A DNA stretch of 64,000 bases from Actinomyces oris (GTDB lineage Bacteria; Actinomycetota; Actinomycetes; Actinomycetales; Actinomycetaceae), in NCBI RefSeq assembly GCF_006546825.1, contig NZ_VICC01000004.1:372001-436000 (forward strand). The letters are read 5' to 3'. The notes under the pieces were generated by a model. It was not told the origin of the DNA and ran no database searches. It saw nothing but the letters and a program-made list of their open reading frames with translations. Within the stretch, counting starts at the first letter, position 1. Each line of letters begins with the position of its first letter. Positions 15,524 through 60,065 of the stretch are shown in pieces. Both the position numbers and the translations under genes were made by a program.

Positions 15524-17020
15524 TCAGGACTGGTTGAAGTCCGCCGCCGTCAGCTTCCCGTCGCGCAGCTTCGAGAAGAAGTCCGGTGCGGTCGTGTCCC
15601 GCAGCAGCACCGTTTCGCCGATCTCGGCGTCCTCGGGGGAGTAGGCGGGATCCTCAATGGGCGGGGCCCCGGTCAGGCCGCCATCGGAGGCGGAGCGGAA
15701 GGCCAGCACCATCTGGGCGATGCTCATGGTGCCGGCGCTGCGATCCACCGTGAGCGCGTTCGTACCGGCGTCGACCAGCGCGTCCTGCCGGGAGAAGGAG
15801 AAGGCGGTGGACGGCGCTGCCGCCTTGGAGACCACTGCGGAAATGACGGCGCGCTGGCGCTGACCGCGACCCACGTCACCGGTCGGGTCCGACTTTCGCA
15901 TCCGGGAGTAGGCCAGCGCCTTCGTCCCGTCCACCGTCTGACACGTGCCCTGAGAGGTGTCCCAGACCAGACCGGAGTCCTCATCGGCGACGTCGTAGTC
16001 CAGGCAGACGTTGACCCCGCCGACGGCGTCGACCATCTGGGATACCCCGGTCATGCCGACCTCCACATAGTGGTCCACGGTCAGCCCGGAGAGCTTCTCC
16101 ACGGTCTGGACCAGCAGCTTGGGGCCGCCGAAGGAGTAGGCGGCGTTGATCTTGTTCTCCCCGTACTCGGGAATGTCCACGAAGGTGTCACGCGGCAAGG
16201 AGGTCAGGCTCGTCTGTCCGTTCTCCGCCTTGTGCAGCAGCATGACGGAGTCGGCACGAGCCCCCTCGGTCTCGTCCTGGACAGCACCTCCGCGCGCGTC
16301 CGAACCCACGATGAGCCAGGTCTCGCCCGGAGTGTCCGCCGCCCCGGACAAGGCGTCGACGCGATGGAGCTGGGAGGAGACGTCGTTCCACAGCCAGGCG
16401 ACCCGCGCTGCGATGAGAGCCAGGGCGACAACGATGACGACGACCGTCCAGCCCACGATCCGGCGCCACCTGGGACGAGCGCGCTTCGGCCGCTGCGGCC
16501 GCTGGGGCGTGAGTGAGGGTCCACCCGCAGCGGGCTCCTGCGGCGACTGCCGGCCCGCGGAGCCCACGGGGTAGGTGCCGCGCCGCACGGGCAAGGCCTG
16601 CGTGCGCTCCGGCCCGGCTGCGCCGCTGCCTCCGTCGGTGTCCGTTTCCAGGGGGATCGCACTCGACCCGGCCCGGGCGTGGCTGCCCCGTTGAGACGGG
16701 GCGGAGGGACGACGGGGCTGGACCGAGGACGGCTGCTGTCCTCTGCGCGTAGAGGCGGGCTGAGCCGAGGCCGGCTGGTCGCCGTCCTGACGGCCCAGGA
16801 CCGAGTGCCGTTGGGGGTTGCGAGCGGCGGTTGATGACGGGCGGCGCGGGGCGCCGCCGGCAACGTCAGTGGGTTGGGCGACTGCCTCGCCGCCGGATGC
16901 CTCCCCGCGCTCGCGGCTGCGCTGGTTGACAGCATCGATGGGACGCTGCCTGCGTTGAGGCCTGCCTCCGCTGGAGCCGGGGGTGATTGAGGGCGGTAGT
17001 GAGTCGTCTGTCGGAATCAC
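15524..17020 (-). CDS. LytR-CpsA-Psr (LCP) family glycan ligase with long disordered N-terminus
   Basis: 498 residues. The first 185 are low-complexity, rich in Arg, Pro, Ser and Gln and predicted cytoplasmic; a single membrane helix follows (about 188-210, GWTVVVIVVALALIAARVAWL), then the extracytoplasmic LCP domain with the conserved SDAR, ADSVMLL, SLPRDTFVDIP and the Arg pair in GRGQRQRA that hold the polyprenyl pyrophosphate. LCP enzymes transfer polymers from lipid carrier to peptidoglycan or protein; A. oris LcpA glycosylates surface protein GspA. Second gene of a tandem pair, 15 bp after the other LCP gene. Confidence 0.9.
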   Translation of the reverse strand: MIPTDDSLPPSITPGSSGGRPQRRQRPIDAVNQRSRERGEASGGEAVAQPTDVAGGAPRRPSSTAARNPQRHSVLGRQDGDQPASAQPASTRRGQQPSSVQPRRPSAPSQRGSHARAGSSAIPLETDTDGGSGAAGPERTQALPVRRGTYPVGSAGRQSPQEPAAGGPSLTPQRPQRPKRARPRWRRIVGWTVVVIVVALALIAARVAWLWNDVSSQLHRVDALSGAADTPGETWLIVGSDARGGAVQDETEGARADSVMLLHKAENGQTSLTSLPRDTFVDIPEYGENKINAAYSFGGPKLLVQTVEKLSGLTVDHYVEVGMTGVSQMVDAVGGVNVCLDYDVADEDSGLVWDTSQGTCQTVDGTKALAYSRMRKSDPTGDVGRGQRQRAVISAVVSKAAAPSTAFSFSRQDALVDAGTNALTVDRSAGTMSIAQMVLAFRSASDGGLTGAPPIEDPAYSPEDAEIGETVLLRDTTAPDFFSKLRDGKLTAADFNQS

Positions 17021-17035
17021 ACCACTGATTCTGCC

Positions 17036-18310
17036 TCAGGCGGGGCAGGCAGGGGTGGTCGGCTTCGCGGCGGGTTGCTGCTGGGGGGTGCTCGTCTTGG
17101 GGGCCTGGGTGGCCGGAGCCGGCGTCGGGGTGGGCTGGGAGGGCTCGGAGGACTCCGAGGAGTCGTCAGTGCTCTCCGAGGTGGAGCCGTCCGCGGTGGC
17201 GCTCGAGTCCGACGAGGCGGGGGCCGAGGTGTCGGAGGGGATGGGCTTGTCGTCCTCGAGGGCCTTCCAGACCTTCTTGGCGCCCTCGGCGGGGACCACC
17301 TGGTTCGGGTTGTCTGCGGGCTGGTTCGGCATGGTGACGAAGTTGATCTTGTCGACGCCCACACCCTGGATGGAGTAGGCCAGGCCCGACAGGTTGCCGA
17401 TCTGACCGATGCGCTCGGACGTGGTGAGGGTCTCCAGGGTGGAGGTCAGGAAGCCGGACTGCGTCAGGAGGCTGGAGGACAGCGCCTTGGAGGCCATGGC
17501 CCGCATGAGGTTCTGCTGACGGGTGATACGGGAGAGATCCGAGCCGTCACTCACCCCGTGCCGGACGCGGGCGTACTGCAGGGCGTTCTCGCCGTTCAGC
17601 TTCTGGCAGCCCTCATCGAGCTTGAAACCGGTGTACTCGGAGTCGTCAATGGCCTCATCGACCTGCACGTGGACGCCGCCGAGGGAGTCGACCACCTTGG
17701 ACAGGCCTGAGAAGTCGACGACGACGAAGTCGTCGATACGCACGTGCGTCAGCTTCTCCACGGTCTTGAGGGTGCAGGCGGCTCCGGAGGCAACGGCCTT
17801 CTTGTCGTCGCTGCTGCTGCCGGCTCCGTTGGCGAAGGCGGAGTTGAACGGTGCGTCCTCGCTGGCGTCGGTCTTCCCGCCGTCGAGGGTCGTGCACTCG
17901 GGGATGTCGACCAGGGTGTCGCGGGGGATGGACACGGCGTCGACGCGCGAGCGATCAGCCGAGATGTGCATGACCAGCGCCGTGTCGGAGCGGGCCACGG
18001 AGACCTCGTCGTCGCCCTGCGAACCGTCGACGTTGTTTTTCCCCGCGCGCGAGTCGGTGCCCAGGATCAGGAGGTTGACGGCTCGGCCCTCGTAGCTGTC
18101 CGGCGGCTTCGTGCCGGGCCGGTCCTCCTCGGTCAGGAGGCTGTCGATGTTGAACCAGGCGATCCGCGACTGGATGTTGTGCCACGCGAAGCCCGCGGCG
18201 GAGACGACGAAGATCGTCACCGCGAGCAGGCTGAGTCCCACTCGCCTGGCCAGGCGGCGTCCGAGTTCCTTGGAGGAGTGTCGCGCATTCGGCTTACTGA
18301 ACTGAGGCAC
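17036..18310 (-). CDS. LytR-CpsA-Psr (LCP) family glycan ligase
   Basis: About 424 residues: short basic cytoplasmic segment, membrane helix (LSLLAVTIFVVSAAGFAW), LCP domain with GTDSRAG, RSDTALVMHI, SIPRDTLVDIP, and the Arg motif YARVRHG...SRITRQQNLM, then a 70-residue Ser/Thr/Pro-rich tail outside the cell. Four cysteines lie in the domain (ECTT, AACT, EGCQ and a C-terminal one), suggesting disulfides. First gene of the LCP pair. Start at GTG 18310, 7 nt after TATGAT; ATG 18322 overlaps that hexamer and is the alternative. Confidence 0.9.
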   Translation of the reverse strand: MPQFSKPNARHSSKELGRRLARRVGLSLLAVTIFVVSAAGFAWHNIQSRIAWFNIDSLLTEEDRPGTKPPDSYEGRAVNLLILGTDSRAGKNNVDGSQGDDEVSVARSDTALVMHISADRSRVDAVSIPRDTLVDIPECTTLDGGKTDASEDAPFNSAFANGAGSSSDDKKAVASGAACTLKTVEKLTHVRIDDFVVVDFSGLSKVVDSLGGVHVQVDEAIDDSEYTGFKLDEGCQKLNGENALQYARVRHGVSDGSDLSRITRQQNLMRAMASKALSSSLLTQSGFLTSTLETLTTSERIGQIGNLSGLAYSIQGVGVDKINFVTMPNQPADNPNQVVPAEGAKKVWKALEDDKPIPSDTSAPASSDSSATADGSTSESTDDSSESSEPSQPTPTPAPATQAPKTSTPQQQPAAKPTTPACPA

Positions 18311-18317
18311 GGAAGCG

Positions 18318-18323
18318 ATCATA
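18318..18323 (-). promoter_or_regulatory. -10 hexamer TATGAT of the LCP operon
   Basis: Minus-strand TATGAT, the best match to the -10 consensus seen here, ends 7 nt before GTG 18310. If used, ATG 18322 would not be in the transcript. Confidence 0.45.
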
Positions 18324-18417
18324 GGGAACGAGACTGCTAAACCATATGGGTCTGCCTACACCTGTTACATGAGATTTACCCAATGCTGGGTGAAGCCCCT
18401 CACACGGGTAACGGGGC

Positions 18418-18423
18418 TAGGCT
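18418..18423 (+). promoter_or_regulatory. -10 hexamer TAGGCT, leaderless start
   Basis: TAGGCT ends 6 nt before GTG 18430 of the rhamnosyltransferase-like gene. Confidence 0.5.
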
Positions 18424-18429
18424 CTGTCC

Positions 18430-19383
18430 GTGACCAGTGTTGCCAAACCCACGTCGACCAGTGCCTCGGCCGCTCCCGTCAGTGCTCCGGATCAGGTAGG
18501 GGAGTGCTCGGAGGTTCGGGCCCTCGCACCTGACGAGCAGAGCGTGCGAGTGGTGACGGTCGCCTTCAACCCAGGTGAGGAGCTGGAGCGCTTCCTGGCC
18601 TCCTTGGCCACGGCGACGGCGCGCAGGCTCGTCGTCGTCATCGCGGACAACGGCACCGAGCACGACGTCGTCACTGCTGCTGCTCAGCGGCACGGGGCGC
18701 GCGTCGTCGGGGACGCCACCAACCTCGGTTACGGGGCGGGCGCCAACCTGGCGGCCGCGGATCTGGAGGAGGACTGGATCGTGGTGGCCAACCCCGATCT
18801 CGTCTGGAGGCCCGGGAGTCTCGACGTCCTCATTGATGCGGGCCTGGCCAACCCGGCGGCCGGCTGCCTGGGGCCCCTCCTGCTCAACCCCGACGGCACC
18901 GTCTACCCCTCCGGGCGCGCCCTGCCCTCCTTAGTCAAGGGTGCCGGGCACGCCGTCCTGGGCCGGATTTGGCCGGCCAACCCCTTCTCCGCCGCGTATC
19001 ACACCGCCGATCAGGGCGGCTCGGGCGGGTCGCGGACGGTGGGCTGGCTCTCGGGGGCCTGCCTACTGCTGCCCGCCGCCGCCTGGAGGCGCCTGGAGGG
19101 CTTCGACGACGACTACTTCATGTTCTTCGAGGACGTGGACTTAGGGGAGCGGGTCGGACGGGCCGGCTGGCTCAACGTGCAAGTGTCGGACTCCGTCGTC
19201 GTCCACGAGCAGGGGGCCAGCTGGAAGGCCCGCCCCGAGAAGATGATCCGGGCGCACCACGCCTCCGCCCGCCACTACCTCAACGGCGTCTACGACGCCC
19301 CGTGGCAGGCGCCGGTGCGCTGGCTGCTCAGCGGCGGGCTGCGCCTGCGTGAGGAGCTCGAGGTCCGCGCCTCCAGGCACTGA
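18430..19383 (+). CDS. WbbL-like GT2 rhamnosyltransferase
   Basis: 317-residue GT-A glycosyltransferase. Donor-binding region VVTVAFNPGEELERFL...VIADNG, catalytic ANPDLVW (DxD-like), and the acceptor-side signature DDDYFMFFEDVDLGERVGRAGW strongly resemble WbbL, which adds rhamnose from dTDP-rhamnose to decaprenyl-diphospho-GlcNAc, the linkage unit of actinobacterial wall polysaccharide. The first 35 residues are variable. Substrate assignment is by resemblance; rmlB and rmlD in this window would help supply the donor. Divergent from the LCP genes. Confidence 0.8.
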   Translation: MTSVAKPTSTSASAAPVSAPDQVGECSEVRALAPDEQSVRVVTVAFNPGEELERFLASLATATARRLVVVIADNGTEHDVVTAAAQRHGARVVGDATNLGYGAGANLAAADLEEDWIVVANPDLVWRPGSLDVLIDAGLANPAAGCLGPLLLNPDGTVYPSGRALPSLVKGAGHAVLGRIWPANPFSAAYHTADQGGSGGSRTVGWLSGACLLLPAAAWRRLEGFDDDYFMFFEDVDLGERVGRAGWLNVQVSDSVVVHEQGASWKARPEKMIRAHHASARHYLNGVYDAPWQAPVRWLLSGGLRLREELEVRASRH

Positions 19384-19418
19384 GGGGGAGTGCCCGCTGC
19401 TCTCCGGGAGCCTCGGGG

Positions 19419-19832
19419 TCAGTCGTCGGTCTCAGCGGTGAGCCGCGCGCCGGCAGGGGGCTCGGGGGCGTTGTCCAGGGCGATGCGGCGAGCCAGGTGA
19501 GTGATCTGCCGCTCCCTGGCGCTGTTGCGCCTGAAGGAGGAGAGGATCTGCGCCAGGAAGGCGATGACCAGGGAGTAGAGCAGGAAGTCAGTTCCTCGCC
19601 CGACTCCCATCCGGTGCGCGATCGAGCTCATCACCCAGGGGAAGGTGATGTTGAAGACGGCGAAGGCCACGAAGGCCAGGGTGACCAGCCTGCGGGCGGC
19701 CATGTGGCGGGCCCCGCCGGGGGTGCGCAGCATCATCCAGCCGACGGCGATCACGGCCAGGATCAGGGCGGCCTGGATGTAGAACTGGTGGTTCGTGATC
19801 GGCGTGACCCGGGTGGCGAACTGATGAATCAT
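19419..19832 (-). CDS. DUF2304-family small membrane protein
   Basis: 137 residues with three hydrophobic segments (QAALILAVIAVGWMML, LVTLAFVAFAVFNITF, FLLYSLVIAFLAQIL) followed by the charged FRRNSARERQITHLARRIAL typical of DUF2304. It starts at ATG 19832 with GGAAGG upstream, 22 bp after the GT2 gene. Such proteins accompany GT2 polyprenyl-phosphate glycosyltransferases; the comparable streptococcal GacI/GacJ pair suggests it stabilises or stimulates its neighbour. Confidence 0.85.
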   Translation of the reverse strand: MIHQFATRVTPITNHQFYIQAALILAVIAVGWMMLRTPGGARHMAARRLVTLAFVAFAVFNITFPWVMSSIAHRMGVGRGTDFLLYSLVIAFLAQILSSFRRNSARERQITHLARRIALDNAPEPPAGARLTAETDD

Positions 19833-19854
19833 GGGCTGTGCCTTCCGTGCGGGC

Positions 19855-20574
19855 TCAGGAGAAGAGCAGGTCGACCAGGATGTTGACCGAGTTCCACAGG
19901 GACTGGCCCTTGGCGCGGGAGTAGTCGGTGTAGACGATGTGCACCGGGAACTCGCGCCAGGGCATGCCGGTGGCGCCGATCTGGCGAATGATCTCGCTTG
20001 CGTGCGCCATCCGGTTCTGCCTGAGGTCGAGCTGCGCCAGGACGTCGCGGCGGAGCACCCGCAGGCCGTTGTGGGCGTCGGTCAGGCGCATGCCGGAGGT
20101 GTGCGAGCTGACGGCCGCCGCCGTGCGCAGGACGATCCGCTTGAGCCACCCCACCGGGGAGGGGCCCTCGAGGAAGCGCGAGCCGAGGACGACGGCGAGA
20201 TTCTCAGCTCGCGCCGCGGCCACCATGGCGGCGGCGTCCGCGGTGGAGTGCTGGCCGTCGGCGTCGAAGGTGACGACGTAGTCGGCATTGGTCTTCTCCA
20301 GCACGTAGGAGAAGCCCGTCTGCAGCGCTGCGCCCTGGCCGAGGTTGATCGGGTGGCGCACGACTACGGCCCCCGCGGCGGCGGCCTCCCGGGCAGAGGC
20401 GTCCTTGGAGCCGTCGTCGACGACAACGACATGGGGGAAGACTGTGCGGGCCTGGGAGATGACCTCGCGCACGACGGTCGCCTCGTTGTACAGGGGAATG
20501 ACGAGCCAGGTGTCGGTGACCGGGAGCGCCGGGGTGGGCGCCCCGGTCTGCGATGCGGTGGAGGTAGTCACCAC
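19855..20574 (-). CDS. GT2 polyprenyl-phosphate glycosyltransferase
   Basis: 239 residues, DPM1-like: LVIPLYNEATVVREVI, VVVVDDGSKDAS, TFDADGQHS (the DxD motif) and the RMAHASEIIRQI region. No C-terminal membrane helices, so it probably docks to the membrane through the DUF2304 partner encoded next. It would transfer a sugar from a nucleotide donor to polyprenyl phosphate on the cytoplasmic face. Two consecutive GTG codons (20574, 20571) can start it. Sugar unknown. Confidence 0.87.
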   Translation of the reverse strand: MVTTSTASQTGAPTPALPVTDTWLVIPLYNEATVVREVISQARTVFPHVVVVDDGSKDASAREAAAAGAVVVRHPINLGQGAALQTGFSYVLEKTNADYVVTFDADGQHSTADAAAMVAAARAENLAVVLGSRFLEGPSPVGWLKRIVLRTAAAVSSHTSGMRLTDAHNGLRVLRRDVLAQLDLRQNRMAHASEIIRQIGATGMPWREFPVHIVYTDYSRAKGQSLWNSVNILVDLLFS

Positions 20575-20690
20575 CGCATTCTTGCACGCGAACAGAGGGC
20601 GCCAGCCCTCTTGCGGGAGGCGGGGGCGGTCGGCCTTGGTGGGGTAGGTCTCCTTCGGGGCGTGCCCGGGCGGCGTCTGGCGGGGGTGGG

Positions 20691-20857
20691 TCCCCTAGGA
20701 TGGGGCCGGTCGTGCAGTGCCCGCCGCCTCCGGCGACCGGAGCGGCACGGCTTCCGGCAGCCACCAGGCTGCCCGGACTCATTCGATCGTCAGGGCGGTG
20801 CGAGCCGTCCGCACAGGAGTCGCCGTGGCCACCAGCATCGCCCCGTCCGCCGATGTC
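20691..20857 (+). repeat. Duplicated leader, copy 1 (promoter, two hairpins, RBS, first 11 codons)
   Basis: 167 bp matching 22316-22481 with one 1-bp gap and three substitutions. Contents in order: TAGGAT -10-like hexamer (20696-20701); hairpin 20723-20746 (GCCG-CTCCGG / CCGGAG-CGGC with one bulged C); hairpin 20756-20773 (GGCAGCC / GGCTGCC, loop ACCA); AGGAG (20815-20819); GTG 20825 and codons for ATSIAPSADV. Similarity stops right after codon 11. The 5' UTR would be about 115 nt, unlike the leaderless genes around it. Confidence 0.9.
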
Positions 20858-22228
20858 CCTCCGGGTTCCACCCGGGAGGGGAGTGACGGCGCTCATGGTG
20901 CCGGTGGCACCGGCCGCGCGTCCGGCCGTGCGGATGCGGCGACCGCGTCCCCGAGGGGTGCTGGGGCGGTGGGCCGGCGCAGTCTGCTCCTGCTCACCGA
21001 CGCCTTCCCCTATGAGGTGGGGGAGGAGTTCCTCGAGCAGGAGATCGAGACCCTGTGCGCCGCATACGACGAGGTCGTCATCGTCCCGATGCGCCTGAGC
21101 CAGGGGGCCCGTCAGACCCGCGGCCTGCCGGCCAATGCCCGCTGCGCCCTGCTGCCCGCCTCGCGGCTGGCCGACTGGCGCCTCCAGGCCCTCCTGCGCG
21201 CCCCGCAGATTCTGCTGGGCCGCGAGCGCATGGTGGAGACCCCGGTGTGGAAGAGCTTCGGCCGCTTCGGCATGGATGTGCGCTTCGCGGCGATCGCCCT
21301 GAGCGCGTACGGACGAATGCGTCGGCTCCTGCCGAGCCTGGGGCTGGAGGGGACAGGGCACCTGACCATCTACTCGTACTGGTTCTTCACCGGGGCAGCA
21401 CTGGGCGGCATGCTGCGGCGTCGGGAGCTGAAAAGGCGCCCGGTGACGGTGGTCTCGCGAGCGCATGCCTACGACGTTGACGAGGCCGACGCCCCCCGCG
21501 GCTACATCCCCTCACGCGCCTTCGTCATGCGGGCCGTGGACCGGGTCTATCCGATCTCGGACTACGCGGCCTCCTTCCTGCACCGGCGCTTTCCCGAGGC
21601 CCGGAACATCGAGGTGCGCCGGCTGGGGGTGCCGCCCGCTCCGCGCCACGAGCGTCACCGGACTGAGCCCTTCCAGCTGGTCTCCTGCTCGCACATGGCC
21701 CCCTACAAGCGGGTCCACCTCATCGTGGAGGCCGTCGCCGAGCTGGAGCGACGCGGTCGGAGAGTCTCCTGGACCCACATCGGCGAGAACGACGCCGATC
21801 GTCTGGCCGCCATGCGCGCCCGGGCCGAGGAGCTGATCGACTCGACCCCGGTGACCTTCACCGGGCACCTGACCAACCGCGAGGTGCGCGAGCTCTATGC
21901 CGCCACCGACTTCGCCTGCTTCCTCAACTGCTCCGACGGTGAGGGTGTCCCGGTGGCCGTCATGGAGGCCCAGGCGGCGGGTATGCCGGTCGTGGCCACT
22001 GCCGCCGGTGGGACCGGCGAGATCGTCCACGACGGCGAGAACGGCCGGCTCGTCCCGGTGGAGGTCACCGCCGCGCAGGTGGCCGACGCCGTCGAGTCCG
22101 TGATGGACCTCAGCGACGCCCAGTACGCAGCCATGAGTGCGCAGGCCCACGCCACCTGGGCGAGGATGTCGGACGCGCAGCGTCAGTACCGGGAGTTCGT
22201 CGACGGCCTGGTGGCCCTGGAGGGCTGA
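20825..22228 (+). CDS. GT4-type glycosyltransferase
   Basis: 467 residues with a GT-B fold: N-terminal LLLTDAFPYEVGEEFLEQEI and C-terminal donor domain with VSCSHMAPYKRVHLIVEAV, GHLTNREVRELYAATDF, and the EGVPVAVMEAQAAGMPVVATAAGGTGEIV signature including the Glu of EX7E. Residues 12-55 are low complexity. The frame is open back to 20717, but AGGAG five nt before GTG 20825 and conservation with the second leader copy fix the start. Its first eleven residues were apparently copied from the acetyltransferase gene downstream. Sugar specificity unknown. Confidence 0.85.
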   Translation: MATSIAPSADVPPGSTREGSDGAHGAGGTGRASGRADAATASPRGAGAVGRRSLLLLTDAFPYEVGEEFLEQEIETLCAAYDEVVIVPMRLSQGARQTRGLPANARCALLPASRLADWRLQALLRAPQILLGRERMVETPVWKSFGRFGMDVRFAAIALSAYGRMRRLLPSLGLEGTGHLTIYSYWFFTGAALGGMLRRRELKRRPVTVVSRAHAYDVDEADAPRGYIPSRAFVMRAVDRVYPISDYAASFLHRRFPEARNIEVRRLGVPPAPRHERHRTEPFQLVSCSHMAPYKRVHLIVEAVAELERRGRRVSWTHIGENDADRLAAMRARAEELIDSTPVTFTGHLTNREVRELYAATDFACFLNCSDGEGVPVAVMEAQAAGMPVVATAAGGTGEIVHDGENGRLVPVEVTAAQVADAVESVMDLSDAQYAAMSAQAHATWARMSDAQRQYREFVDGLVALEG

Positions 22229-22315
22229 GGTCATCTGCCGGGACCGTCTTCCTCCGCCTCTTCTCAGCGGCGTCGCAGAGGAGAGGCGCCGGCGATGTCG
22301 TCTCGCGGGGGTCAG

Positions 22316-22481
22316 TCCCCTAGGATGGGGCCGGTCGTGCAGCGCCGCCGCCTCCGGCGACCGGAGCGGCACGGCTTCCGGCAGCCACCAGGCTGCCCGG
22401 ACTCATTCGATCGTCAGGGCGGTGCGAGCCGCCCGCACAGGAGTCGCCGTGGCCACCCGCATCGCCCCGTCCGCCGATGTC
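22316..22481 (+). repeat. Duplicated leader, copy 2
   Basis: 166 bp nearly identical to 20691-20857. Same layout: TAGGAT 22321-22326, hairpins 22347-22370 and 22380-22397, AGGAG 22439-22443, GTG 22449. This copy is probably the original, because the shared residues IAPSADV fit the native N-terminus of the left-handed beta-helix acetyltransferase. Confidence 0.9.
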
Positions 22482-23105
22482 TCCGAGGAAGCCGTGCTCG
22501 GAGAGGGCACCAGCATCTGGCACCTCGCACAGGTCCGTGAGCACGCCGTCCTCGGACGGGACTGCATCGTGGGGCGCGGCGCCTACATCGGTGAGGGCGT
22601 CGTCATGGGGGACAACTGCAAGGTGCAGAACTACGCCCTCGTCTACGAGCCGGCCCGCCTGGCCGACGGGGTCTTCATCGGCCCGGCGGTCACGCTGACC
22701 AACGACCACTTCCCCCGGGCCGTCAACCCCGACGGCTCGCTCAAGTCGGCCGCCGACTGGGAGCCCGTGGGAGTCACCATCGAGGAGGGCGCGTCGATCG
22801 GCGCCCGCGCCGTGTGCGTGGCTCCGGTGCGTATCGGGGCCTGGGCCACGGTGGCCGCCGGCGCCGTGGTCACCAAGGACGTTCCCGCCCACGCGCTGGT
22901 CGCCGGGGTCCCCGCCCGCCGCATCGGCTGGGTCGGGCGCGCCGGTGAGCCCCTTACTCCCTCCGACCCCGGCCCCGACGGCGCCCCGCGCTGGCGCTGC
23001 CCCGTCACCGGGACCCTGTACGAGCAGTTCGTTGCCGAGCCCGCTGCCGGGTCCGGCTCGCAGTCCAGCTCCGAATCCACCACCATCCGAGAGGTCACCC
23101 ACTGA
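22449..23105 (+). CDS. WbpD-like sugar N-acetyltransferase (left-handed beta-helix)
   Basis: 218 residues with imperfect hexapeptide repeats (IAPSADVSEEAVLGEGTSIWHLAQVREHAVLGRDCIVGRGAYIGEGVVMGDNC...) and the family's NDHFPRAVNPDGS and VTIEEGASIGARAVCVAPVRIG. This is the WbpD/WlbB family, which N-acetylates the 3-amino group of UDP-GlcNAc3NA using acetyl-CoA; the His of NDH is the expected base. First gene of a tightly coupled set: its TGA overlaps the ATG of the aminotransferase. Cytoplasmic trimer by family precedent. Confidence 0.85.
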   Translation: MATRIAPSADVSEEAVLGEGTSIWHLAQVREHAVLGRDCIVGRGAYIGEGVVMGDNCKVQNYALVYEPARLADGVFIGPAVTLTNDHFPRAVNPDGSLKSAADWEPVGVTIEEGASIGARAVCVAPVRIGAWATVAAGAVVTKDVPAHALVAGVPARRIGWVGRAGEPLTPSDPGPDGAPRWRCPVTGTLYEQFVAEPAAGSGSQSSSESTTIREVTH

Positions 23106-24238
23106 TGTCACGCGAGTTCATCCCAGCAGCCAAGCCGATCATCGGGCAGGAGGAGCGCGACGCCGTCGACGCCGTCCTCACCTCGGGCATGGTCGTTCAG
23201 GGGCCCCAGGTCAAGGCCTTCGAGGAGGAGTTCTCCTCCCAGGTCGTCGACGGTGTCCACTGCGTGGCCGTCAACTCCGGCACCTCGGCCCAGCACGTGG
23301 CCACCCTGGCCACTGAGCTCCAGGAGCGCGCCGGCGGGGCCCCGGAGGTCATCGTCCCCTCCTTCACCTTCGCCGCCACCGGCAACTCGGTGGCCATCAG
23401 TGGTGCCGTGCCGGTCTTCGCCGACATCGACCCGGTGACCTTCAACCTCGACCCCGCCAGCGTCGAGGCCTCCATCACCGAGCGCACGGCGGCCATCGAG
23501 GTGGTCCACCTCTACGGTCTGCCCGCCAACATGCCGGAGATCCTCGCCATCGCCGAGCGTCACGGCCTGGCCGTCTTCGAGGACTGCGCCCAGGCGCACG
23601 GCGCCGCCATCGAGGGCAAGCCCGTGGGCACCTTCGGGGCCTGGGGCTCCTTCTCCTTCTACCCCACCAAGAACATGACCAGCCTCGAGGGCGGCATGAT
23701 TACCACGGCCGACGCCGAGCTGGCCCGCCGCTGCCGCCTCATCCGCAACCAGGGCATGGAGCAGCAGTACGCCAACGAGCTGGTGGGCCTCAACAACCGC
23801 ATGACGGACGTGGCCGCCGCCGTCGGCCGCGTCCAGCTGACCAAGCTGGCCGGCTGGACCGCTGCCCGCCAGGCCAACGCCGCGCGCCTCAACGAGCTGC
23901 TGGCGGGCGTCGACGGCGTCGTCACCCCCTTCGTTCCCGAGGGCTACACGCACGTCTACCACCAGTACACGATCCGCCTCGAGGGCGCCACGGGCGCCGA
24001 GCGCGATGCCGTCCAGGCCGCCCTGCGCGAGGAGTGGCAGGTCGGCAGCGGCGTCTACTACCCGATCCCCAACCACCGCCTGGCCTCCCTGGCCCACTAC
24101 GCCGAGGGCCTCGAGCTGCCCGGAACCGAGAAGGCCGCCCGCGAGTGCCTCTCCCTGCCGGTCCACCCCTCCCTGAGCGATGCGGACCTGGAGCGCATCG
24201 GCCAGGCCGTGGCCGCCACCGTCAAGGCAGGTGCCTGA
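23105..24238 (+). CDS. WbpE-like DegT/DnrJ/EryC1 sugar aminotransferase
   Basis: 377 residues, PLP-dependent. The internal aldimine Lys189 lies in SFYPTKNMTSLEGGM; VPSFTFAATGNSV, EDCAQAHGA and NQGMEQQY are family hallmarks. WbpE/WlbC members convert UDP-3-keto-GlcNAcA to the 3-amino sugar with glutamate as donor, between the WbpB and WbpD steps; both flanking genes encode exactly these. Other 3- or 4-aminotransferases of the family are possible, but context argues strongly for this one. Confidence 0.88.
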   Translation: MSREFIPAAKPIIGQEERDAVDAVLTSGMVVQGPQVKAFEEEFSSQVVDGVHCVAVNSGTSAQHVATLATELQERAGGAPEVIVPSFTFAATGNSVAISGAVPVFADIDPVTFNLDPASVEASITERTAAIEVVHLYGLPANMPEILAIAERHGLAVFEDCAQAHGAAIEGKPVGTFGAWGSFSFYPTKNMTSLEGGMITTADAELARRCRLIRNQGMEQQYANELVGLNNRMTDVAAAVGRVQLTKLAGWTAARQANAARLNELLAGVDGVVTPFVPEGYTHVYHQYTIRLEGATGAERDAVQAALREEWQVGSGVYYPIPNHRLASLAHYAEGLELPGTEKAARECLSLPVHPSLSDADLERIGQAVAATVKAGA

Positions 24239-24239
24239 C

Positions 24240-25307
24240 ATGGGTGAGAACGTCGCTCTCGACGGGCAGGCCACCACTGCGCTGCCCGAGGTCCACCACC
24301 TCACCGACAAGGGCACGGCGGACAACCCGCTGCGCGTGGGCCTCATCGGCCTGGGCTCCATGGGACGCCACCACGCCCGGGTCATCCGCGCCACTGAGGG
24401 CATGGAGCTCGTGGCCGTGGCCGACCCCGGCGGCGACCGCTTCGGCGTGGCCGGCGAGCTGCCGGTCCTGCCCGATGTCCACGCCCTCGTCGACGCCGGG
24501 CTCGATGCCGCCATGGTGGCCGTCCCCACCGTCTACCACGAGGACGTCGCCCTGGCCCTGGCCGAGGCGGGCGTGCACACCATGGTGGAGAAGCCCATCG
24601 CCCACGACGCCGCCGCGGGCCGCCGCGTGGCCGCCGCCTTCGCGGAGCGGGGCCTGGTGGGTGCCGTCGGCTACGTGGAGCGCTGCAACCCGGCCCTGCG
24701 GGCCCTGCGCGAGCGCCTCGACGCCGGTGAGCTCGGTGAGGTCTACCAGGTCCTCACCCGCCGCCAGGGCCCCTTCCCGGCCCGCATCAGCGATGTCGGG
24801 GTCGTCAAGGACCTGGCCACCCACGACATCGACCTGACCGCCTGGGTTGCCGGCGCCCGCTACACCTCCGTGGCCGCGCAGGTCACGCACCGCTCCGGCC
24901 GCCAGAACGAGGACATGATGGTGGCCACCGGCCTGCTGGAGGGCGGCATCGTCGTCAGCCACCAGGTCAACTGGCTCACCCCCTTCAAAGAGCGCGTCAC
25001 GATCGTCACCGGCGAGAAGGGCGCCTTCGTGGCGGACACCCTCACCGGGGACCTCACCTTCCACGCCAACGGCACCGTGGCCTCCACCTGGGACCAGGTC
25101 GCCGCCTTCCGGGGCGTCAGCGAAGGCGACGTCATCCGCTACGCGATCCCCAAGCGCGAGCCGCTGGCCCTGGAGCAGGAGAACTTCCGCGACGCCGTGC
25201 GCGGCGTGGCCCAGCGCCACGTCACCATGGCCGAGGGCGTGGCCACGCTCGACGTCGTCGAGGCGGTCCTGACCTCGGCGAGCGAGAACCGGACGGTCGC
25301 GCTCTGA
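24240..25307 (+). CDS. WbpB-like Gfo/Idh/MocA sugar oxidoreductase
   Basis: 355 residues. NAD(P)-binding LIGLGSMGRHHARVI, EKP motif with Lys118 (MVEKPIAHD), and catalytic pair Lys190/His195 in KDLATHDIDLTAW. WbpB/WlbA enzymes oxidise C3 of UDP-GlcNAcA. ATG 24240 begins one base after the aminotransferase stop. An N-terminal extension of about 30 residues precedes the Rossmann fold; an internal start is possible. Order D-E-B is the reverse of the reaction order. Confidence 0.88.
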   Translation: MGENVALDGQATTALPEVHHLTDKGTADNPLRVGLIGLGSMGRHHARVIRATEGMELVAVADPGGDRFGVAGELPVLPDVHALVDAGLDAAMVAVPTVYHEDVALALAEAGVHTMVEKPIAHDAAAGRRVAAAFAERGLVGAVGYVERCNPALRALRERLDAGELGEVYQVLTRRQGPFPARISDVGVVKDLATHDIDLTAWVAGARYTSVAAQVTHRSGRQNEDMMVATGLLEGGIVVSHQVNWLTPFKERVTIVTGEKGAFVADTLTGDLTFHANGTVASTWDQVAAFRGVSEGDVIRYAIPKREPLALEQENFRDAVRGVAQRHVTMAEGVATLDVVEAVLTSASENRTVAL

Positions 25308-25333
25308 ACCGCTCAGCCGCACCGAGCGGCCCC

Positions 25334-26683
25334 GTGGCGGGAGTACTCGCCCGGGTCCGCTCGGTCATGGAGTCCTCCCCGTTCCTGCGCCACGTCCTGA
25401 CCCTGGTCAGCGGCACGGCCACCGCCCAGGCCATCGTCTTCGGCATGACGATGATCCTCACCCGCATCTTCTCCGACGCGGACCTCGGCCAGCTGGCGCG
25501 CTACACCTCGGTCGTCTCGATCATCACGGCCGTGGCGGCCCTGCGCTACGACATGACGATCATGCTCCCCAAGAAGGACGCCTGGGCCCTGGCCTGCGCC
25601 CGCCTGGGAATGGTGTGCATCGTGGTGGTCTCGGTCGTCTCCAGCGTCGTGGCCTTCCTCCTCAAGCCGCTGGTCACCCGGTACTGGGGGGCGGATATCG
25701 CCGTCTGGATGCCGCTGCTGGGCGTGACCACGCTGCTGCTGTCCACGGTCCAGCTCCTCCAGTACTGGTACAACCGCCAGTCGGACTACCGGACGATCTC
25801 GATCAACCGGGTCGAGCAGCAGGTCGGGCAGTCCCTCGGCCAGCTCGTCCTGGGGGCGGCGGGGATGGTCAGCGTCGGAGGCCTGCTGATCGGTCAGACG
25901 ATCGGGCAGGCCTGGGCCTTCGTCAACCTGGGGCGCAAGGCCAAGCCCCTGCACCGGCCGCTGCCGCCGGAGGCGCCCACCCTGTGGCAGGTGGCCCGCC
26001 GCTACCGGCGCATGCCCCTGCTCAACGGCCTCAACGCCTTCGTCGACGCCGTGCGGCTCAACGGCATCAACCTGCTCGTGGGCTCCTACTCGGTGGCCAG
26101 CCTGGGGCAGTTCAACCTGGCCTGGCGCTGCCTGGAGGTTCCGCTGGCTCTCATCAACGCCGCCGTGGGGCAGGTCTTCTTCCACAAGCTCGCCACCCTG
26201 CGTCCCGGACAGATGCGCCCCCTGGTCCGCCAGGTCATCAAGCGGGTCCTCATCATCGGGACCGCGCCGTTCGTCCTGCTCTACATCGTGTCGCCCTGGC
26301 TCTTCCCCCTGCTCTTCGGCAGCAGCTGGACCGAGGCCGGCAGCTTCGCCAGGGCCCTGACCCCCTGGCTGTTCATCCTCCTGGTCACCTCCCCGCTGTC
26401 GACTCTCTTCGTCGTCACCGAGAACCAGGACTGGCTACTCCTGTTCTCGGTGGTCTACGCCGCCGTCCCCCTGGCCTGGCTCTGGTTCAGCCCGTACTCG
26501 CTGCTGACGACCACCTACGTCCTGGGCGCCCTCATGTGCCTCATCCTGGTGGTGCAGATCCTCATGGCCGATGCCGCCGCCCGCCGCTTCGACGCCAGGC
26601 CCCCCGCCAGTGAGGCCGACGAGGGCCACTACGAAGCCGCTGACGACTCCGGGGACGCAGCCGGCACGCCCGAGGATCAGTAG
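25334..26683 (+). CDS. Wzx-like oligosaccharide flippase
   Basis: 449 residues with about twelve membrane helices, starting FLRHVLTLVSGTATAQAIVFGMTMILTRIFSDADLG, typical of the PST/MATE-like polysaccharide flippases. It would move a lipid-linked repeat unit, presumably one containing the uronic acid made by its operon neighbours, to the outer face. A hydrophilic acidic tail of about 35 residues ends the protein. GTG 25334 lacks a clear ribosome-binding site and may rely on coupling to the upstream gene 26 bp away. Overlaps the convergent next gene by 7 bp. Confidence 0.85.
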   Translation: MAGVLARVRSVMESSPFLRHVLTLVSGTATAQAIVFGMTMILTRIFSDADLGQLARYTSVVSIITAVAALRYDMTIMLPKKDAWALACARLGMVCIVVVSVVSSVVAFLLKPLVTRYWGADIAVWMPLLGVTTLLLSTVQLLQYWYNRQSDYRTISINRVEQQVGQSLGQLVLGAAGMVSVGGLLIGQTIGQAWAFVNLGRKAKPLHRPLPPEAPTLWQVARRYRRMPLLNGLNAFVDAVRLNGINLLVGSYSVASLGQFNLAWRCLEVPLALINAAVGQVFFHKLATLRPGQMRPLVRQVIKRVLIIGTAPFVLLYIVSPWLFPLLFGSSWTEAGSFARALTPWLFILLVTSPLSTLFVVTENQDWLLLFSVVYAAVPLAWLWFSPYSLLTTTYVLGALMCLILVVQILMADAAARRFDARPPASEADEGHYEAADDSGDAAGTPEDQ

Positions 26684-27795
26684 GATGTCGAGTACTGGGC
26701 GATGGCGGCCTCGTAGGCGCGGCCGTAGGAGTGCGCCACCTGACTGGGGGAGAAGGCCCGCGGCAGCCTGTCCTGGATGTCGCGCGCCGTGAGGTCCGTG
26801 CACCGTCCCATGACGTCGACGACGGCCCTGGCCCACGCGGCGGGGTCGTCCTGAGAGACGATCTCGCTCACAGAGGAATCCAGGAAGCTGGTGTGCGCCC
26901 CCCGGTCACTGGTGACCACTGGCCGGCCGGCGGCAACGGCCTCGGCGGCACCCAGGAAGAAGGTCTCGGCGAGCGTGGGTACGAGGAAGAGGTCGTTGTC
27001 GGCCAGGACCTGCTGCACCTGATCGCCCGGCAGCTGACCGGTCAGCTCCAGGTCGACGCCCAGGGCGGCCGCGAGATCCGTGCAGCGATCGGCCAGGGGC
27101 CCGCCACCCACCCAGGTCAACCGGGCCGGAACCCCCTGCTGTGCCAGCGCCGCGACCGCCTCAACCGCCAGGTCCGGCCGCTTGCGCTCGATGAGCCCCC
27201 CGATACCGACGATCCGCAGCGTGTCACGCCCCAGCTCAACGCTGCGGCGCGGCGCCGGCTCCTCAGGCATGGTGACCTCATTGGGGACCGTCAGGATCTC
27301 ACCCTCGGGGCGGTAGGCCCGCAGGTCGGTGGCGAGCTGGTCGGAGACGGTGGTGACGACGTCGGGCCGGCGCTCCAGGCGCAGGACCACCTGAGCCCCC
27401 GCCCGCGCCAGGGAGCCGAGCTCGGCGCCGCGCTGGGCGATCCCCGACCAGTGCTCCGTGTGGAGCCACGGCTGACGGGGTCGACTCAGGGAGTAGGGCA
27501 GGAGGGTGGAGACCGCGTGGGTGTGGACGACGTCACTGTCCCGAGTCAGCGCTGTCAGCTCCCGCCTGGCCGCGAGCACCTCGTGGGGCCGCGACAGCGA
27601 CATGGGCAGGCGCACGACGGGCAGCCCCATCACCCGGTCGCGGCGCACCCCGTCGTCGACGGAGGCCGAGGCGAGGTGGACGACGCGAATATCGTGGCCG
27701 GCCGCCGCCATGGAGGCGGCGTGGCGTGCCACGAAGACCCCCAGACCCGGTGAGCGGTGCGTGGGGAACCAGGTGGTGACGATGGTGACGCGCAT
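26677..27795 (-). CDS. GT4 glycosyltransferase
   Basis: 372-residue GT-B enzyme: TWFPTHRSPGLGVFVARHA (acceptor-side glycine loop), TVSDQL, IVGIGGLIERKRPDLAVEAV (donor-domain start) and VPTLAETFFLGAAEAVAAGRPVVTSDRGAHTSFL. The usual EX7E motif is present as ETFFLGAAE. Transcribed with the 2-epimerase gene 29 bp upstream, hence likely a transferase for the sugar that epimerase helps make. Tail-to-tail 7-bp overlap with wzx. Confidence 0.85.
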   Translation of the reverse strand: MRVTIVTTWFPTHRSPGLGVFVARHAASMAAAGHDIRVVHLASASVDDGVRRDRVMGLPVVRLPMSLSRPHEVLAARRELTALTRDSDVVHTHAVSTLLPYSLSRPRQPWLHTEHWSGIAQRGAELGSLARAGAQVVLRLERRPDVVTTVSDQLATDLRAYRPEGEILTVPNEVTMPEEPAPRRSVELGRDTLRIVGIGGLIERKRPDLAVEAVAALAQQGVPARLTWVGGGPLADRCTDLAAALGVDLELTGQLPGDQVQQVLADNDLFLVPTLAETFFLGAAEAVAAGRPVVTSDRGAHTSFLDSSVSEIVSQDDPAAWARAVVDVMGRCTDLTARDIQDRLPRAFSPSQVAHSYGRAYEAAIAQYSTSY

Positions 27796-27824
27796 GATGC
27801 TGCCCAGGGAGCCAGTGCGGGCGA

Positions 27825-28907
27825 TCAGCCGGGCAGGTGCTCAGTGAGGGCCTGGACCACTCGGGCCGCGGCGTTGCCGTCCCCGTAGGGGTGGGCATCG
27901 GCGTCGGCGGGCTCGGTCGGCCGGGTACGGGAGGCGGCGTCGACCAGGGCCTGACCGGGCTCGACCAGGACGTTCCAGCCCAGGTTGACGGTCTCGACCC
28001 ACTCGGTCTGGGGACGCACCGTGGTGCACGGCGCCCGCAGGAGGAAGGCCTCCTTCTGCAGGCCGCCGGAGTCGGTGACCACGCCGCGGGCGTGCAGGGT
28101 CGAGGCGACGAGCTCGGGGTAGGCCAGGGGCGGGTGCATCCGCAGGTTACCCGAGTCCTCCAGGGTGATGCCGTGCTCGGCGCACTTGGCCACCAGGCGC
28201 GGGTGGGCCAGGAGCACCACCGGGTGATCGACCGCCGCCAGCGACTCCAGGATGGAGCGCAGGCGCTCGGGGTCGTCGGTGTTCTCCGCCCGGTGGATGG
28301 TGGCCAGCGAGTAGCCGCCCTCGGGCAGGTCCAGCTCGGTCATGACGGGGGAGGGGGTATCGATGACGGAGTCGCGCACCGAGAACAGGATGTCGGTCAT
28401 CACGTCGCCCACGACGACGGTGCGCTCTGCCAGGCCCTCGTCCGCCAGGTGGGCGGCCCCCACCTCGGTCGGTGCCAGCAGCAGGTCGGCGGCGTGATCG
28501 GTCAGGATCCGGTTGATCTCCTCGGGCATGGCCCGGTTGAAGGAGCGCAGGCCCGCCTCCAGGTGGGCGATGGGCACGTGGAGCTTGACGGCGGACAGCG
28601 CCCCGGCCAGCGTGGAGTTCGTGTCCCCGTAGACCAGGACCCAGTCGGGGCGATGGGTCTCGATGGTCTCGTCCATGGCCGCGAGCATCGTGCCGGTCTG
28701 CACCCCGTGCGACCCCGAGCCGACCCCGAGGTGGACGTCCGGGGCCGAGATCCCCAGGTCGCTGAAGAAGACATCGGAGAGCATCGGGTCGTAGTGCTGC
28801 CCGGTGTGAACAATCACATGGTCGATGCCGGCCTCACGGAAAGCGGCGTCGATCGGGGCTAGCTTGACGAACTGGGGCCGGGCGCCCACCACTGACATGA
28901 CACGCAT
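27825..28907 (-). CDS. UDP-N-acetylglucosamine 2-epimerase family (WecB/WbpI-like)
   Basis: 360 residues of the non-hydrolysing 2-epimerase family: VVGARPQFVKLAP, HTGQHYDPMLSDVFF, VYGDTNSTLAG, AHLEAGLRSFNRAMPEEINR, and VVTDSGGLQKEAF. The TVRPQTEWVETVNLG stretch is closer to WbpI-type enzymes acting on UDP-GlcNAc3NAcA than to classic WecB, as far as can be judged by eye. It would yield UDP-ManNAc3NAcA or UDP-ManNAc. Leaderless ATG start. Confidence 0.88.
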   Translation of the reverse strand: MRVMSVVGARPQFVKLAPIDAAFREAGIDHVIVHTGQHYDPMLSDVFFSDLGISAPDVHLGVGSGSHGVQTGTMLAAMDETIETHRPDWVLVYGDTNSTLAGALSAVKLHVPIAHLEAGLRSFNRAMPEEINRILTDHAADLLLAPTEVGAAHLADEGLAERTVVVGDVMTDILFSVRDSVIDTPSPVMTELDLPEGGYSLATIHRAENTDDPERLRSILESLAAVDHPVVLLAHPRLVAKCAEHGITLEDSGNLRMHPPLAYPELVASTLHARGVVTDSGGLQKEAFLLRAPCTTVRPQTEWVETVNLGWNVLVEPGQALVDAASRTRPTEPADADAHPYGDGNAAARVVQALTEHLPG

Positions 28908-28914
28908 GGTTGAG

Positions 28915-28920
28915 ACTCTA
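28915..28920 (-). promoter_or_regulatory. -10 hexamer TAGAGT, leaderless start of the epimerase gene
   Basis: Minus-strand TAGAGT ends 7 nt before ATG 28907. The 290-bp divergent interval 28908-29197 has no other gene. Confidence 0.5.
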
Positions 28921-29113
28921 CCGTGACTGCACGGGCTCCAGTGCCATCGAGCGCCAGGGAGTCAAGGACGCGGAGGCCTTTTCGAACGGTCGTGAACATC
29001 GTTGGGGCGGCGCTGAAAAGGCGGTACTTCCACGGAGGCCGCCCCCGGCTGCTGAGCTCCACCGCGAGGTACCGGACCTCCGACGTCGTGTCATAACTGT
29101 GATCGGCCGATGG

Positions 29114-58836: not shown

Positions 58837-60065
58837 ACCGCACCCCCGATCAGGGCGTGATAGACCTCCGTGTGCGCGGCGGCGCAGGCCTCCCAGGTGA
58901 AGGTCCGGGCGCGCTCGCGGCCGGCCTCGGCCAGCTCGTCGTGCTGCGGTCCGATGGCCTGGGCGAGCAGGCCGGCGATCTCACGCGGCGAGGCGGGGTC
59001 GGCCAGCAGGCCGGCCTGTCCGCACACCTCGGCCATGCAGGTCCCAGCACTGGTGACCACCGGGGCCCCATAGGCCATGGCCTCCAGGACCGGCAGGCCG
59101 AAGCCCTCCCAGATGGAGGGGAAGCAGAAGGCGCGGGCGCCGCTGTAGGCGGCCGCCAGCTCGTCGTCGTCGAGCCTGCCGGTGACGTGGACCCGATCAC
59201 CCAGGCGGGTCAGCAGCTCGCGCTCGGCGGCGTCGTCGCCCCACCCGGCCGGACCGACGAGGACCAGGTCGAGGCCGCCGGCGTCGTCATGCTCCTCGAT
59301 GAGGAGGGCGAAGGCGCGCAGCAGTCCCAGCAGGTTCTTGCGGGGCTCACGGGTACCCGTCCACAGGACGTAGTCGCGCGTGAGGCCCCGGGCGGCTCGG
59401 AAACCCTCGACCTGCTCGTCGGTGACAGTGCGGGTGCGCACCCCGTGGGGAATGACGTAGAGGCGGGCGGCGTCGATCCCCGCCGCGATGCAGTCGTCGG
59501 CGGTGGCCTGGGAGGGGACGACGATGGCGCTGGCCTCAGCGATGACGCGCTCCAGGCAGCGGCTGAAGTAGGCGTTGCCGCGCGCGGTGAAGTGCTCGGG
59601 TGAGCGCAGGAAGGCCAGGTCGTGCACGGTGACGACCAGCGGCAGCGAGGTGGGGGGCAGCGCCCAGGTCGTGGCGTGGATGAGCTGGGCGCCGGGCAGG
59701 ATGGACTCGGCCCGCGGCAGCCCCAGACGGTTCCAGGACTCGTACAGGGCGGTGCGCGGCAGGTGGGAGGAGCGCATCGGCATCGGCGGCAGTCCGACCT
59801 GGCGCGGCGAGGCGGCCCCCTGGTGGTGGGCGGCGATCCCGGCCACGGGTACCCGCCGGGCGCGCAGGGCCTGGGCGAGCTCGACAATGTAGGTGCCCGA
59901 GCCCCCGGGCACGGGCTGCCACAGCTGCTCCACCACCATGCCTACGCGTGGTCCGCGGGGGCGAGCCGGTGGACGGGGGCCCTTGGCGGTGGAGGACGCG
60001 GTGCGGGAGGCGGGGGAGGGGGAAGGGGCCGGGGAGTGCGCCGGGCGGGAATGATCTGCGCTCAT
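58833..60065 (-). CDS. GT4 glycosyltransferase
   Basis: 410 residues. Disordered Pro/Ser-rich 38-residue N-terminus, then GMVVEQLWQPVPGGSGTYIVELAQAL (acceptor loop), TVHDLAFLRSPEHF, VPSQATADDCIAAGI, VLWTGTREPRKNLLGLLRAF and FPSIWEGFGLPVLEAMAYGAPVVTS with the EX7E motif. Similar in plan to the divergently transcribed GT4 at 60113. A TACTCT hexamer 6 nt before ATG 60065 points to leaderless transcription. Confidence 0.88.
   Translation of the reverse strand: MSADHSRPAHSPAPSPSPASRTASSTAKGPRPPARPRGPRVGMVVEQLWQPVPGGSGTYIVELAQALRARRVPVAGIAAHHQGAASPRQVGLPPMPMRSSHLPRTALYESWNRLGLPRAESILPGAQLIHATTWALPPTSLPLVVTVHDLAFLRSPEHFTARGNAYFSRCLERVIAEASAIVVPSQATADDCIAAGIDAARLYVIPHGVRTRTVTDEQVEGFRAARGLTRDYVLWTGTREPRKNLLGLLRAFALLIEEHDDAGGLDLVLVGPAGWGDDAAERELLTRLGDRVHVTGRLDDDELAAAYSGARAFCFPSIWEGFGLPVLEAMAYGAPVVTSAGTCMAEVCGQAGLLADPASPREIAGLLAQAIGPQHDELAEAGRERARTFTWEACAAAHTEVYHALIGGAV

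Follow-up and report, generated by a model that had tools for sequence, protein, structure and literature searches.

Two adjacent genes in the window, the 64,000-nucleotide stretch of Actinomyces oris DNA analysed here, begin with nearly the same sequence: a promoter-like region, a 5′ untranslated region (UTR), a start codon and eleven codons. The first gene encodes a glycosyltransferase (GT4A) and the second an acetyltransferase. The locus thereby raises the question of which gene owned this leader, how the other came to carry it, and whether the duplication has a role of its own, as a switch or as a regulatory RNA. The features discussed below are collected in Table 1.

Table 1. Position, strand and basis of assignment of the features at the locus (window coordinates).
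Feature	Position	Strand	Basis and remarks
GT2B, divergent GT2-family gene	19855..20574	-	Best NCBIfam match polyprenyl-phospho-sugar synthase, below cut-off; flanks the leader
Leader copy 1	20672..20857	+	Alignment, blastn limits; TAGGAT 20696-20701, GTG 20825; precedes GT4A; ancestral position, adjoining the divergent GT2B gene
GT4A, GT4-family glycosyltransferase	20825..22228	+	Pfam PF00534/PF13692; orthologues, N-termini, blastn
CCGCCGATGTC	20847..20857	+	Left insert end, end of copy 1
Linker DNA of the insert	20858..20970	+	Outside the blastn alignments with relatives, save a weak 78% G001 match from 20935
GT4A 3′ flank inside the insert	22229..22296	+	About the first 18 bases match G032
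CCGGCGATGTC	22289..22299	+	10/11 identical to CCGCCGATGTC; right insert end, runs into the start of copy 2
Leader copy 2	22297..22481	+	Alignment, blastn limits; precedes the acetyltransferase
Hexapeptide-repeat N-acetyltransferase-like protein (LbHAT), native owner of the leader	22449..23105	+	GT2B neighbour in 23 others
DegT/DnrJ/EryC1 aminotransferase	23105..24238	+	
Gfo/Idh/MocA dehydrogenase	24228..25307	+	Best NCBIfam match UDP-GlcNAc 3-dehydrogenase, below cut-off
Flippase, type A	25334..26683	+	89-93% to G018/G021/G022/G040; 58-61% to the other type
Missing-GTX site between flippase and GT4B	26641..26690	.	GTX is ~1.3 kb in G021

The duplicated leader and its owner

Direct alignment of the two leaders confirmed what a preliminary description of this DNA had reported, namely near-identical copies of 167 bp that differ by three substitutions and one gap. 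Both contain the TAGGAT and the AGGAG named there as well as the GTG start, and the similarity does stop after codon 11, in the identical frame in both copies. The homology runs about 19–20 bp further upstream, with four more substitutions, and the full repeat unit of 186 bp (copy 1) or 185 bp (copy 2) has seven substitutions and one gap in 186 alignment columns. The copies are ∼96% identical and lie 1.6 kb apart in the same orientation and frame, with an insert of 1439 bp between them; a 186-bp repeat at this identity excludes chance. Each copy comprises the -10-like box, the region of a putative -35 element, the 5′ UTR, the AGGAG, the start codon and the 11 codons. Upstream of the -10 box, the sequence GTCGTCT is common to copy 2 and 11 relatives and is altered in copy 1, so the promoter of copy 1 may differ. 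No further copy was found at E ≤ 0.001 in the genome to which the window belongs (19 contigs, 3.17 Mb). A coding reading of the upstream part of the leader, in the frame open from the GTG at 20717, was rejected because this codon is missing from copy 2 and the one-base gap shifts the frame between the copies.

The number of leader copies in Actinomyces genomes, a check proposed in the preliminary description, was determined in a set of 49 same-genus genomes, the window's own included. A full-length leader (at least 85% identity) is present in 12 of them, and only the window's genome has two copies. The 11 relatives have one such copy each, located at the acetyltransferase gene. Leader matches of some kind (E ≤ 0.01) occur in 41 of the 49 genomes, 29 of which hold short pieces only. 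Among the loci listed, GT2B and the acetyltransferase gene are adjacent in 23 other genus members (20 listed loci, 11 with the full leader and nine more distant, together with G032, L067 and L068); both genes were seen in all of these, and none has an inserted gene between the two.

The same picture was obtained when positions 18000–29000 of the window were used as blastn query against 12 relatives (G001, G014, G030, G035, G039, G045, G032, G018, G020, G021, G022 and G040). The alignments end at exactly 20857 in 11 of the 12. Nine of them pick up again at 22297; those with G035 and G045 start later, at 22315, and the distant G032 rejoins only at 22454. These limits and the one-leader order elsewhere indicate that insertion and duplication are the derived state in the window's genome, and that the one-leader order is ancestral.

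GT4A itself is usually found at another place. Orthologues (at least 72% identity) are present in 15 of the 49 genomes, own included, and in the other 14 the gene follows a flippase gene (13 genomes) or the gene for another transferase, GTX (G003). The order acetyltransferase, DegT, MocA, flippase, GT4A is seen in G001, G014, G030, G035, G039, G045 and G032, and GT4A likewise follows a flippase in G004, G007, G013, G026, G037 and G044. All 14 orthologues are without this leader and have varied N-termini with putative starts of their own (ATG in 13, GTG in G032); in G001, GGAAGGAG lies upstream of the putative start. Taken together, the one-leader order in relatives and the GT4A orthologues without the leader support the earlier proposal that the leader with its 11 codons is native to the acetyltransferase gene and appears to have been captured by the glycosyltransferase.

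Divergence of GT4A and the missing transferase

The GT4A reading frame has a composite make-up: codons 1–11 come from the acetyltransferase gene, a linker follows, and core homology begins at 20971. Searches of 151 family genomes and of the window's own genome for a donor of the linker and the 3′ flank turned up nothing beyond short matches, a plasmid collection gave no near match, and no clear source was found for the 3′ flank past its first ∼18 bases. A tblastn similarity of GT4A residues 12–49 to the end of the G001 flippase was considered as a relic of the old position and set aside, as similarity at the DNA level is clear only from 20935.

Relative to G001, the window has a dS of 0.11 for GT2B, 0.10 for the acetyltransferase, 0.08 for DegT and 0.12 for MocA, and of 0.41 for GT4A. 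To the six other GT4A carriers among the 12 relatives, GT4A dS is 0.40–0.49, and to the G014 group it is 0.40–0.47, compared with 0.15–0.34 for four flank genes. From G014 to G030, G035, G039 and G045, GT4A gives 0.14–0.28 and the four flank genes 0.17–0.33; thus, the gene is not simply fast at silent sites. The G001 gene is over-diverged as well (GT4A dS 0.43–0.46 to the G014 group against 0.15–0.33 for the flanks), so the 0.41 may in part reflect the history of G001, and the window's GT4A, that of G001 or both may be from outside. Identity to G001 in 150-base steps is 81–93%, with no near-identical stretch. The frame is intact and dN/dS is ∼0.14 vs. G001, indicating that the gene is under constraint.

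This pattern of divergence points to a probable import of GT4A, or at the least to a change of place. It might instead be an old allele that was retained in the lineage, a reading compatible with the GT4A tree, where the window and G001 are joined (100/100) on long branches.

The 3′ part of the operon has a different history. Here, dS to G001 is 0.65 for the flippase and 0.62 for GT4B, because the window carries the other allelic type of these genes, and the locus is a mosaic. To G021 the corresponding values are 0.15 and 0.17, which identifies the pair as a GTX-type cassette. In G018, G021, G022 and G040, GTX, a different transferase, lies between the type-A flippase and GT4B. In the window the blastn alignment with G021 stops at 26640 and starts again at 26691, and GTX is absent from the window's genome at E ≤ 1e-40. 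As an observation on the GTX homologs, the match in G018 (L099/L126) contains one TGA, yet there is a 427-codon ORF at this place; perhaps the match begins upstream of the real start.

Among the 12 relatives, GT4A is found in seven and GTX in five (G018, G020, G021, G022 and G040), and none has both or neither. The more distant G003 has both, and four more distant genomes that have the operon (G009, G011, G017 and G025) have neither at the thresholds used. As GTX is missing here, the net effect would be a swap of the last glycosyltransferase of a surface glycan, with the newcomer in promoter-proximal position.

Possible routes and alternative explanations

The account that we favour, and to which as a whole we give moderate confidence, combines import of GT4A, duplication of the 186-bp leader, in-frame capture of the start and the exchange for GTX. 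GT4A from another Actinomyces lineage would have been inserted between the divergent GT2B gene and the acetyltransferase operon, and the insertion would have been accompanied by duplication of the 186 bp that hold the resident promoter, UTR and start region. GT4A would have lost its own start, and its translation would now begin at the resident start codon and run through the 11 codons captured with it. The acetyltransferase gene keeps a complete leader (copy 2), so the operon is still intact. The two simplest routes would be (i) integration, by one crossover, of a circularised fragment that held GT4A together with a short stretch of leader, or (ii) a tandem duplication of the leader first, with GT4A then inserted where the two copies met.

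Direct copies of 186 and 185 bp on either side of the 1439-bp insert are a feature of Campbell-type insertion. In E. coli, single crossovers of circular molecules without part of a homologous segment produced duplications of 109–950 bp in 14 sequenced clones (PMC3240628). The likeness lies in foreign DNA placed between direct copies of a chromosomal segment; the difference is that a selected plasmid was used there, whereas the event is here inferred from one genome. Homology-facilitated illegitimate recombination (PMC3240628) has one homologous and one illegitimate end and could yield fusion junctions like those seen here, but its design predicted deletion there, not duplication. The insert holds no transposase, its reading frame matches glycosyltransferase families only, and none of the 22 inverted pairs of at least 12 nt in 20600–22520 joins its ends.

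The near-repeat of 11 bp at the insert ends (Table 1) bears on the second route, since its right-hand member leads straight into copy 2, an arrangement that would follow from a tandem duplication of the leader before GT4A entered at the junction. Across 63980 positions, a suffix match as good as this one is found 10 times, the known copies being counted. The near-repeat was noticed post hoc, and the window has more near matches to the 11-mer than shuffles have (17 vs. 4.3), so we take it as a hint only. In respect of the one-base gap, copy 2 resembles G001 and G020, whereas copy 1 has the longer form found in the other relatives; this is a poor fit to a simple recent copying of one resident leader.

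Two other repeats were seen in the window. A 300-nt direct repeat, 93% identical (42660–42959 and 42978–43277), lies inside an 826-codon ORF (40930–43410) with LGFP repeats and an Amidase_2 domain and is an ordinary protein repeat. A 70-nt inverted repeat (59051–59120 and 60950–61019) is 90% complementary, with its arms 1.8 kb apart.

GT4A ends the operon in seven of the 12 relatives, and it might have been relocated locally: the stretch from the leader to GT4A would have been tandem-duplicated within the lineage, and later deletions would have left leader, GT4A, leader and acetyltransferase. The duplication junction would then join the GT4A 3′ flank to a leader, as is seen, and dS to G001 would be inflated if G001's own gene had been replaced. 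Such a history resembles tandem duplication–random loss, by which a gene changes place inside a constant set of genes and duplicated remnants may be left behind. A gene moved in this way should be as diverged as its neighbors. GT4A is not, with the reservation that G001's own gene is diverged too; towards the G014 group, the dS of the window's GT4A still exceeds that of the four flank genes. The flippase of the window is of the other type, and the GT4A 3′ flank is unlike that of G001 past the stop codon. We therefore regard local relocation as rather unlikely, although it retains some weight.

A different explanation sees in the leader a structured RNA with a regulatory function, for example masking of the start codon, and holds that it was duplicated for that regulation. 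The preliminary description had noted two conserved hairpins and suggested a shared regulatory element. Of these, the second is paired in all 13 leaders, while the first (CTCCGG/CCGGAG) is paired in 86% of cells and loses one of its six pairs in nine of the 13. The helix 68–76/81–90 is paired in 13/13 leaders and has one compensatory pair (GC:5, AU:5, GU:3); another helix shows G-C/G-U change only. All 13 leaders would allow CACGGC to pair with GCCGTG at the start codon, but this helix is invariant and hence uninformative. In the covariance analysis called for earlier, the structure beats all six slid versions, and no more than 23 of 500 shuffles have as high a covariation score, but only one of 27 pairs changes on both sides, which 143 of 500 shuffles also reach. 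There is no Rfam match at E ≤ 1 in 20000–23500, folding z is -1.0 to -1.6 in four sequences, and the UTR lacks an alignable counterpart in 12 more distant genomes, nine of which nevertheless carry TAGGAT. The suggested RNA element thus found little backing, and we consider this explanation of the duplication quite unlikely.

The direct copies could also act as a glycan switch, in that recombination between them would remove GT4A and leave an intact leader on the acetyltransferase gene. Their length, identity, orientation, spacing and frame would allow this. The predicted one-leader product, put forward in the preliminary description as a built-in route to glycan variation, does match the arrangement of the relatives, and the four distant genomes with the operon and neither transferase tell that such a state can exist. 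The one-leader state was seen in other species only, where it is the ancestral order; no deletion was seen, with one genome per species compared. Deletion would be one-way without re-import, and its product here would be without both terminal transferases, a state found in none of the 12 close relatives. In addition, at each of the seven sites that distinguish the copies, copy 2 has the base of G001 and G020 and copy 1 has another, so the copies are not being homogenised. At three of these sites the base of copy 1 is found in none of the 11 closer relatives and at four in some; together with the grouping of the gap, this suggests that copy 1 may have drifted or partly derive from another lineage. 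Thus, occasional deletion between the copies is possible, and the built-in variation is very doubtful, a maintained switch being unlikely.

Finally, mis-assembly as the source of the repeat is highly improbable even for a draft genome in 19 contigs, since the copies differ at seven sites and by one gap, the copied start continues in frame into GT4A, and GT4A has a single match in the genome (E ≤ 1e-30).

Setting of the locus and a second start-region capture

A WecB-type epimerase gene lies near the operon; together with the acetyltransferase, DegT and MocA-type dehydrogenase it makes a set that we presume to serve a diacetamido-uronic acid sugar. Near the start of GT2B, at about 20578–20592, a GCATTCTTGCACG-like motif is found that recurs in many genus members with otherwise unalignable leaders and is a possible promoter or operator of GT2B. 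Two genes of the LytR_cpsA_psr family are located beside the locus (15524–18322). This family has been linked to glycan attachment in A. oris, where, according to a review, lcpC and lcpD are in one transcriptional unit and attempts at an lcpC deletion did not succeed (PMC7831098). As the locus adjoins genes of this family, the type of surface glycan is a plausible phenotype.

Glycosyltransferase and flippase genes undergo modular exchange in surface-polysaccharide loci. The present locus is like this in that alleles of the terminal transferase and the flippase vary among close relatives while the sugar-nucleotide genes are conserved. It is unlike it in that the new gene stands at the front of the operon, under a copied leader and with an in-frame N-terminal fusion. 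A prior description of such an arrangement was not found in a narrow survey of open-access literature, seen in part; the arrangement is an uncommon and instructive example of known processes.

A related case was found in G020 (L094, 14341–15699), where GTX is fused in frame to the GT4A start region behind a type-B flippase, the type that accompanies GT4A (dS 0.14 to G001). The G020 DNA tracks the flippase/GT4A junction of G001 through the GT4A ribosome-binding site, the start and 17 codons. Past this junction come about 25 unmatched bases and then the tail of a type-A flippase with GTX; the reading frame runs open from the GT4A start into GTX. Thus, counting the window, this locus shows at least two fusions of one gene's start region to another transferase, two cases that do not amount to a rate. 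One may speculate that exchange of terminal glycosyltransferases via start-region capture within a dispensable N-terminal linker is a recurrent event in the oris group of Actinomyces, and that captures which duplicate the leader, being removable by recombination, are cheap to undo; in this general form we think the idea unlikely to hold.

The locus retains a readable scar of a change of the last transferase, in which a probably foreign gene stands behind a resident promoter and start codon and the operon remains whole. If captures of this kind recur, in-frame N-terminal joining would explain how imported transferases can be expressed immediately.
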